NCBI GenBank assembly: GCA_017554235.1
Contig: JAFZIV010000041.1
Coordinates: 1-64,000, forward strand
Direction: 5' to 3'
DNA: 64,000 nt
From: Selenomonadaceae bacterium
Lineage (GTDB): Bacteria; Bacillota; Negativicutes; Selenomonadales; Selenomonadaceae
Position 1 is the first letter of the stretch; every line of letters starts with the position of its first letter. Shown here piece after piece: positions 4,650-39,376 of the stretch. Below the pieces are notes generated by a model. That model searched no databases, was not told the DNA's origin, and worked only from the letters and a program-made list of their open reading frames with translations. A program made the translations under genes and the position numbers.

Positions 4650-4697
4650 AAAAATTTTTTTCAAGCCATTAATATTTTTTAAGTTGGCACGTATAAT
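4650..4697 (+). promoter_or_regulatory. Shared-family promoter, copy 1
   Basis: A palindrome TTGAAAAAA/TTTTTTTCAA is followed by -35 TTAATA (4669-4674), a 17-nt spacer ending AAGTTGGCACG, and -10 TATAAT (4692-4697). The same arrangement with a conserved spacer occurs at 5118-5159 and, on the minus strand, at 39326-39375. The leader also shares the SD context TTTGAAAGGAAGTTTT with copy 2. Confidence 0.8.
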
Positions 4698-4764
4698 AGA
4701 CAGAAAGAAAAATTTAAAAATTAAAAAATAGAAAATAAAAAAATTTGAAAGGAAGTTTTTAAAA

Positions 4765-5109
4765 ATGAAATGCAAAATGTTATTGATGGCGTGTTTGGCA
4801 ACAAATTTACTGTTTTCGGGAGTGACTTCTGCTCATTCTTTAGACGACGCAAAATGTACACCTATTAATAGTACAGGATATTCAGAAAGTTGTATCAGTT
4901 CATTAAATGATAAAGACAGTGTAATTAATTATTCTAGCGACAATCCGTTTAAAGGTTATCATTATAATCGTGGATCACATGAAGACAATCCCTTTAAGTA
5001 TTATCGTGAGCATCATAGATCACGTGATGACGACAATCCGTTTAAAGGTTATCATTATAATCGTGGTCATCATGGGCATAGTGATGATTATTACAAGCCG
5101 CAATTCTAA
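4765..5109 (+). CDS. Small secreted protein with DNPFKGYHYNRG repeats
   Basis: 114 residues. Residues 1-24 form a signal peptide (basic start, hydrophobic core, then SAHS). The mature part is hydrophilic and repetitive: DNPFKGYHYNRG occurs twice almost identically, with a degenerate middle copy DNPFKYYREHHR, and the tail is rich in His, Asp and Tyr. I do not recognise a family. A surface or metal-binding role is conceivable from composition only. ATG 4765 follows the SD GAAAGGAAG. Its promoter block is shared with the next gene (5202) and with the leader-bearing HPr gene at 38957, which suggests common control. Confidence 0.75.
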   Translation: MKCKMLLMACLATNLLFSGVTSAHSLDDAKCTPINSTGYSESCISSLNDKDSVINYSSDNPFKGYHYNRGSHEDNPFKYYREHHRSRDDDNPFKGYHYNRGHHGHSDDYYKPQF

Positions 5110-5201: not shown

Positions 5202-5561
5202 ATGTTAGAAGAAAAAATTATGAGTGAAGAAATTATGAACGAAGAGGAACTCAACGAAGTTGCAGGAGGCACATGGAATCAAGTTGCAGACGATGCAGAA
5301 AATATACGCTATCTTGAAAGACGTTATCACGTTGATCTCTTGCCTCCGGGCTCTGCTTCAGCAGATGATATTAATTACGCTATGAACACAATAGGTGAAC
5401 TTATCTCTAGATATTACTGTTGTGATTTTCATATCGGTTGCGATCTTAAGTTAGACGGCGAGAAGAACCACTACTACCTTAATCACAATAAAATGGGACA
5501 CAATCAAATTTGGGGAGCAATTTACGACAGGCTTAATATTGAAGTAAGACCTAACATCTAA
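5202..5561 (+). CDS. Double-glycine-leader protein of unknown function
   Basis: 119 residues. The first 23 residues form an acidic leader ending in ELNEVAGG, the cleavage signature of Nif11-like and bacteriocin-type leaders processed by C39-peptidase ABC exporters. The leader matches that of the HPr-like protein at 38957 at 14 of 23 positions, and both have GG at residues 22-23. The following 96 residues (starting TWNQVADDAEN) contain a YYCC pair and one further Cys; I do not recognise the domain. ATG 5202 has an SD GAAAGGAAG. No exporter or modifying enzyme is encoded nearby. Confidence 0.78.
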   Translation: MLEEKIMSEEIMNEEELNEVAGGTWNQVADDAENIRYLERRYHVDLLPPGSASADDINYAMNTIGELISRYYCCDFHIGCDLKLDGEKNHYYLNHNKMGHNQIWGAIYDRLNIEVRPNI

Positions 5562-38903: not shown

Positions 38904-38940
38904 AAAAAATCCCAACTAATAATCGAAGGGATTTTTTAGA
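38904..38940. terminator. Rho-independent terminator of the HPr-like gene
   Basis: Stem AAAAAATCCC with GGGATTTTTT separated by about 13 bases; T-runs occur on both strands, so it may be bidirectional. Confidence 0.8.
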
Positions 38941-38956
38941 TAAAAATTTTAGATTT

Positions 38957-39295
38957 TTAATTTTTGCCGAAATTATTATTAATGAAATCGGTTAAAGTTT
39001 TTACAGCTTCTTTTTCATCAGGTCCGTCTGCAATAATCTTTATTTCATTACCATTTTTTACGCCCAAGCCCATGAGTTTCATCATATTTGTAGCACTAAC
39101 GTTTTTATCATTCTTCTCAATGAAAATATTTGTTGATTGGAACTGCTTTGCTAATTTAATGAGTTGTCCTGCGGGACGCGCATGAATACCGTCTTTGTCT
39201 CGGATAGTTATTGTAGCTTCATACATTCCGCCTGCAACTTTGTCAAGCTCTTCATCGCTCATAATTTCATCTTCAAAAATTTTTTCGTCAGACAT
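38957..39295 (-). CDS. HPr phosphocarrier-like protein with a double-glycine leader
   Basis: 112 residues. Residues 1-23 are an acidic leader (EEIM-type core, ending ELDKVAGG), 14 of 23 identical to that of the protein at 5202. Residues 24-112 are a full HPr domain: the phospho-His loop GIHARPAGQL, the regulatory Ser region SATNMMKLMGLGVKNG and a C-terminal DEKEAVKTLTDFI. HPr is normally cytosolic and leaderless; this leader predicts cleavage after GG and export by a peptidase-containing ABC transporter, or processing by an unknown system. ATG 39295. Its promoter matches those at 4650 and 5118. No PTS genes are nearby. Confidence 0.88.
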   Translation of the reverse strand: MSDEKIFEDEIMSDEELDKVAGGMYEATITIRDKDGIHARPAGQLIKLAKQFQSTNIFIEKNDKNVSATNMMKLMGLGVKNGNEIKIIADGPDEKEAVKTLTDFINNNFGKN

Positions 39296-39325
39296 ATTAT
39301 CAACGACCTTTCAAATTTTCTGTTT

Positions 39326-39376
39326 ATTATACGCGATAACTTCAAAAATGTTAATCGATTTGAAAAAATTTTTTCA
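39326..39376 (-). promoter_or_regulatory. Shared-family promoter, copy 3
   Basis: On the minus strand: palindrome TGAAAAAATTTTTTCA, -35 TTAACA (39349-39354), 17-bp spacer with GAAGTTATCGCG, -10 TATAAT (39326-39331), and AATTTGAAAGG before the start codon. It is clearly related to the two promoters at 4650 and 5118. Confidence 0.8.

Follow-up and report, generated by a model that had tools for sequence, protein, structure and literature searches.

HPr normally acts only inside the cell, where it relays phosphate to sugar transporters. The locus described here raises the question of why an HPr domain should follow a double-glycine (GG) leader of the kind used for export. We analysed a window of 64,000 nucleotides, the whole stretch of DNA taken from contig JAFZIV010000041.1 of a Selenomonadaceae bacterium. 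The gene in question, leader-HPr, was an open reading frame at 39295-38957 on the minus strand encoding a protein of 112 aa, MSDEKIFEDEIMSDEELDKVAGG followed by MYEATITIRDKDGIHARPAG... The gene lay inside the interval 38957-39376 of the preliminary description, but the reading frame began at 39295, and the remainder to 39376 added the ribosome-binding site (RBS) and the promoter (Table 1). According to the translation, residues 1-23 ended in DEELDKVAGG. In the alignment, Met24 corresponded to the native Met1 of ordinary HPr; thus, a cut after Gly23 would free an HPr with its native N-terminus. The GAAAGG element also preceded most sibling leader genes, and AGGCGG was found immediately before the Met24 codon. 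A strong terminator-type hairpin ended the gene, so leader-HPr was most likely monocistronic. Membership of a ptsHI or aspS operon was rejected on the basis of the gene's own promoter and hairpin, and because no HPr gene preceded aspS in the loci read from other genomes of the genus.

Table 1. Positions of the features of the leader-HPr gene and of a sibling gene in the window.
Feature	Position	Strand	Basis
Promoter TTAACA-N17-TATAAT, spacer TTTTTGAAGTTATCGCG	39326..39354	(-)	Consensus scan, 11/12 positions
Ribosome-binding site GAAAGG, upstream of leader ATG	39307..39312	(-)	Read from sequence
Double-glycine leader MSDEKIFEDEIMSDEELDKVAGG, 23 aa	39227..39295	(-)	Profile match and similar copies in the genome
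HPr domain, 89 aa and stop, residues 24-112	38957..39226	(-)	PF00381, alignments, AlphaFold2, Foldseek
Terminator-type hairpin between leader-HPr and aspS	38904..38937	(-)	RNA fold -16.1 kcal/mol, z -5.6
Sibling GG-leader gene, 119 aa, unrelated payload	5202..5561	(+)	Leader profile E 1.7e-10; same RBS and promoter context

The identity of the domain behind the leader was examined by profile search, alignment and structure prediction. Residues 26-106 matched the Pfam family PTS-HPr (PF00381) with an E-value of 1.1e-28 and 99.5 bits (cut-off 23), and the protein scored 88.4 bits against TIGR01003 (cut-off 47.9). The alignment revealed an intact active-site motif, GIHARPAG, in which His15, Arg17 and Pro18 were kept as H38, R40 and P41 of leader-HPr. 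An AlphaFold2 model, built from a 16-sequence alignment, gave a confident HPr fold, with block pLDDT values of 89-96 across most of the domain; the first ten residues of the protein were poorly ordered (pLDDT 52). In a Foldseek search, the best PDB match to the model was 3le1 (TM 0.94 by target), and every one of the 39 PDB matches passing E 0.001 was an HPr or Crh chain. Crh itself was rejected: the score against NF010354 was 78.6 bits versus an equivalog cut-off of 123, and the active-site His was present, whereas Crh lacks His at position 15. These results showed that the domain combined an intact HPr motif with a predicted HPr fold, and the complete HPr domain with GIHARPAG named in the preliminary description was thereby confirmed. 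The same description had also read a regulatory Ser region, which did not hold, as the position aligned with Ser46 was Asn (ATNMMKLMG versus AKSIMGIMS). Ser46 of HPr is the HPr kinase site, a residue that not every HPr must have. The HPr part contained no cysteine.

The preliminary description had proposed a 23-residue leader with a double glycine and a search for other proteins that carry it. Both were borne out by the family found in this genome, where about 30 copies of the leader were obtained by a single-sequence search and 28 by a profile search. The leader of leader-HPr scored 53 bits (E 1.3e-13 per genome) and stood fourth in the profile listing. The profile consisted of 17 rows from the genome's leaders, leader-HPr being itself one of them, and the single-sequence search, whose matches nearly all started small open reading frames, supported the leader independently of this circularity. 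A chance GG motif was ruled out by about 30 similar leaders and the profile score, far beyond chance. By profile search, 50 of 66 genus genomes, this one among them, had members of the family. The published recognition motif of C39 peptidases consists of hydrophobic residues at -4, -7 and -12 and Glu at -8, with Leu usual at -12 (PMC6363468). Counted by hand relative to the cut, leader-HPr carried Val-4, Leu-7, Glu-8 and Met-12, thereby fitting three of these four residues (PMC6363468), with Met replacing Leu at -12, as it also did in many sibling leaders. The leader models TIGR03793 and TIGR03798 gave no match to leader-HPr at E-values up to 1.

The payloads behind these leaders were also compared. 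Among the 126 leader-bearing proteins of the fetched loci, 77 formed one cluster, typically of 80-100 aa, while the others included peptides of 27-40 aa and a few proteins with Nif11-type leaders. The HPr payload stood alone among the 126 and, at 89 aa, fell into the size range of the main class (about 80-100 aa). A Pfam scan of 18 sibling proteins found a payload domain in none, the sole match over the cut-off being a Nif11 leader, and the main sibling payload, modelled for one member (pLDDT 73), gave no significant fold match. Leader-HPr also draws attention to an extensive set of small GG-leader proteins in the genus, many under one common promoter, whose payloads, as far as tested, had no Pfam match and, for the one member modelled, no significant fold match. 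Two regions, G000:C41:1-6000 (L041) and G000:C12:1-5000 (L044), each held an array of GG-leader genes; the payloads were diverse, at about 90 aa, and represent an uncharacterised exportome. At 4679-5109 of the window, directly before the sibling leader gene at 5202, a variant of the leader-gene promoter preceded the gene of a protein of 114 aa whose N-terminus resembled a signal peptide.

The promoter linked leader-HPr to the same set of genes. The spacer in Table 1 was common to the promoter of leader-HPr and those of other GG-leader genes. A 19-base promoter pattern, TGAARTTRTCGCGTATAAT, had six exact matches genome-wide, and all six, leader-HPr included, preceded GG-leader genes and stood at most about 50 bases from the gene start; among the five matches with one mismatch in the whole genome, four preceded GG-leader genes. 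DNA identity between leader-HPr and nine siblings was 52-73% over the 102 bases upstream and 76-87% in the leader region, and it fell past the leader to about 50%, which was the background. High identity upstream and in the leader, with a payload at background, is what a cassette join would look like.

The source of the HPr domain was then considered. The genome also encoded an ordinary leaderless ptsH adjoining ptsI, to which the leader-HPr domain was 44% identical. A recent duplication of this ptsH was ruled out by that identity, by branching outside the ptsH group of the genus and by the missing Ser46. Since the promoter and leader were shared with the sibling genes and the HPr was not a recent ptsH copy, a promoter-plus-leader cassette appears to have been joined to an HPr domain. 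In two trees, leader-HPr branched with the Ser46-less HPr of Blautia and of genomes G340, G334 and G092, joined in the second tree by that of G447; support for this fructose-type grouping was moderate (94/78 and 94/99; 88 columns, unrooted). By eye, the grouped genes of Blautia, G340 and G092 adjoined a fructose-type PTS permease gene, and the fructose-type HPr of the group likewise lacked serine at position 46. Leader-HPr resembles the Ser46-less type of HPr family phosphocarrier (TIGR01003, PF00381) in its fold, its GIHARPA site and its lack of serine 46; in Blautia, and in further families belonging to that class, genes of this type have fructose-type PTS genes as neighbours. In contrast to these, leader-HPr has an export leader and a leader-gene promoter, and it does not adjoin PTS genes. 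With any other HPr encountered, its domain shared only about 50% identity. The GC3 of the HPr part was 0.30, unlike the 0.58 of ptsH and close to the 0.34 of the other leader gene in the window. A third HPr-like domain of the genome, at G000:C1:36356-36577 (L003), lacked the active-site His.

The fusion occurred in 1 of the 66 genomes of the genus. Searches of 380 class genomes and 398 phylum genomes, with matches restricted to E 1e-15 and 1e-18, gave no further leader-HPr; these two sets overlap and together comprise roughly 700 further genomes. Three candidates for a second fusion (G013:C97, G729 and G615) were inspected, and none was a fusion. A phage origin was rejected, as no relative was found in viral contigs, and a defence gene was rejected, as there was no PADLOC match. 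On plasmids, the relatives among the matches listed were ordinary HPr or ptsP, and one that apparently started earlier was annotated as ordinary HPr. GG-leader exportomes and HPr are already known; a natural leader-HPr fusion under a leader promoter was not found in the literature searched, largely papers open without subscription, with the wider search made by title and abstract. In that literature, one paper, a review of class IIa bacteriocins, mentioned both HPr and a double-glycine leader.

A peptidase-containing ABC transporter, which the preliminary description had suggested looking for, was present on contig C33, a different contig from that of leader-HPr. It formed part of an NHLP set of HlyD (TIGR03794), peptidase ABC (ABC1, TIGR03796) and second ABC (ABC2, TIGR03797), all above their curated cut-offs (984 bits versus 853 for TIGR03796). 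The C39 domain of ABC1 kept the catalytic Cys and the His context (ECGAASLSMI, HWEFNHF), and the two other C39-like domains of the genome, in HlyB-type systems, lacked the catalytic Cys. By eye, the neighbours of the exporter resembled YebC, RuvC, RuvA and HypF, and no modification enzyme was recognised beside it. No LanC-like protein was found in the genome, this being the class of maturation enzyme that the search covered. Like the precursors of the NHLP/NHLM peptidase ABC systems (Nif11 and NHLP families; Haft et al. 2010, PMC2887384), leader-HPr has the GG motif and the recognition residues, and the genome holds many paralogous precursors with variable payloads and the full TIGR03794/03796/03797 exporter. 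It differs from them in its short leader of 23 aa, which falls outside TIGR03793 and TIGR03798, and in its payload, a folded housekeeping domain instead of a hypervariable core, with no maturation enzyme found (PMC2887384). A second comparison is the Microcin V type GG-leader exporter, which takes many kinds of cargo, limited mainly by length: secretion increased up to 66 aa and fell at 116 aa, the native substrate having 88 aa (PMC10231218). The 89-aa HPr lies within these sizes and below the drop at 116 aa. As in that system, a leader before a small cargo would be expected to give one-step export; unlike it, leader-HPr is a natural HPr fusion, with NHLP in place of the CvaAB transporter (PMC10231218).

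Taken together, these results suggested, with a probability that we put at about 0.6, that leader-HPr is a natural cassette fusion in which the family promoter, RBS and 23-residue leader stand in frame before a Ser46-less HPr, and that a native-length HPr is exported via NHLP. According to this model, leader-HPr would be transcribed together with the leader genes. The leader would dock in the groove of the C39 peptidase domain of the NHLP ABC transporter, the peptidase would cut after Gly23, and the native-length HPr would exit through the HlyD/ABC1/ABC2 apparatus. Since enzyme I (EI) and PEP both reside in the cytosol, EI could phosphorylate the protein only before it leaves the cell. Judged from sequence, leader-HPr is probably cut free and sent out of the cell; against this, the exporter is encoded on another contig instead of beside the gene, and a narrow channel might hold back an HPr that is stably folded. 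In the company of these leader genes, a secreted protein active at the cell surface or on neighbours would be more in keeping than one with a role in sugar transport. More specifically, the exported HPr might be an effector, either interfering with the sugar transport system of neighbouring cells or reporting on it, for instance by accepting phosphate as a decoy or by binding the PTS in the manner of a bacteriocin, which we consider very unlikely in this particular form.

Three other explanations were weighed against export. The protein could remain cytosolic, its leader carried along or weakly used, with leader-HPr or a form starting at Met24 serving as an accessory HPr for a PTS permease. 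The retained His, Arg and Pro of the active site, eight EIIC-domain matches in the genome and the grouping with HPr genes that adjoin fructose-type PTS genes in several genomes are consistent with such a role, and an internal start at Met24, aligned with the native Met1 and directly preceded by AGGCGG, could be a source of cytosolic HPr. However, AGGCGG abuts the ATG and so is poorly spaced for a Shine-Dalgarno sequence, whereas the ATG of the leader lies behind the family RBS; moreover, leader-HPr has the leader genes' promoter, and inspection of its surroundings by eye showed no recognisable EII or EI gene. We therefore regard a cytosolic role as unlikely. With only one genome known to carry it, the fusion may instead be an evolutionary accident in which a leader cassette landed before a foreign HPr gene without a selected function as yet. 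This would agree with its occurrence in a single genus genome and nowhere else searched, and with the other genus genomes whose loci were read, none of which had an HPr gene upstream of aspS. Against it stand a junction in frame exactly at GG/Met, a motif and predicted fold retained despite identities of only about 50% with any other HPr seen, and the gene's own terminator hairpin, so that an accident seems quite unlikely.

The preliminary description had left export and a docking tag for a maturation enzyme side by side. The tag would recruit an enzyme that modifies the HPr domain, and in other systems GG leaders of the Nif11 and NHLP types are indeed used by modification enzymes (PMC2887384). 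Yet neither a LanC-like enzyme in the genome nor a recognisable one among the YebC-, RuvC-, RuvA- and HypF-like neighbours of the exporter was found, and the core is a folded domain without cysteine. The missing LanC-like enzyme and cysteine make this the weakest alternative, and an extremely improbable one. The export half, in comparison, was supported by the roughly 30 siblings, the shared promoter cassette and the NHLP exporter with its C39 peptidase, and we infer that export is the best-supported reading of leader-HPr. The fusion looks like a natural event in which promoter, RBS and leader, together an export cassette, became joined to a cytosolic domain of housekeeping function; if so, it would show how a GG-leader exportome can acquire new cargo. 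As HPr is among the best-studied bacterial proteins, leader cutting and phosphorylation are directly testable by standard assays.

HPr domains were also found in other settings in the genus. Many HPr-domain fusions occurred in which HPr formed the C-terminus of a longer protein. A domain of about 200 aa recurred at their N-terminus, in many cases with '...EVRxxDxLKxHFD...', and several of these fusions (among L091, L096, L097, L105, L106, L108, L058, L052, L099 and L100) lacked the active-site His. As in leader-HPr, HPr is re-used here as a module; most of these fusions branched with the genus ptsH, whereas leader-HPr did not. From position 4489 of L107 (G021:C30) onwards, an HPr-like domain without the active-site His followed the signal-peptide-like MKKLFLTALLVAMMSSSTVFA, an arrangement that hints, as a second and independent sign, at HPr-like domains leaving the cytosol in this genus. 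Three tandem HPr genes were observed in one genus genome (G003:C39, L101:5945-6797).
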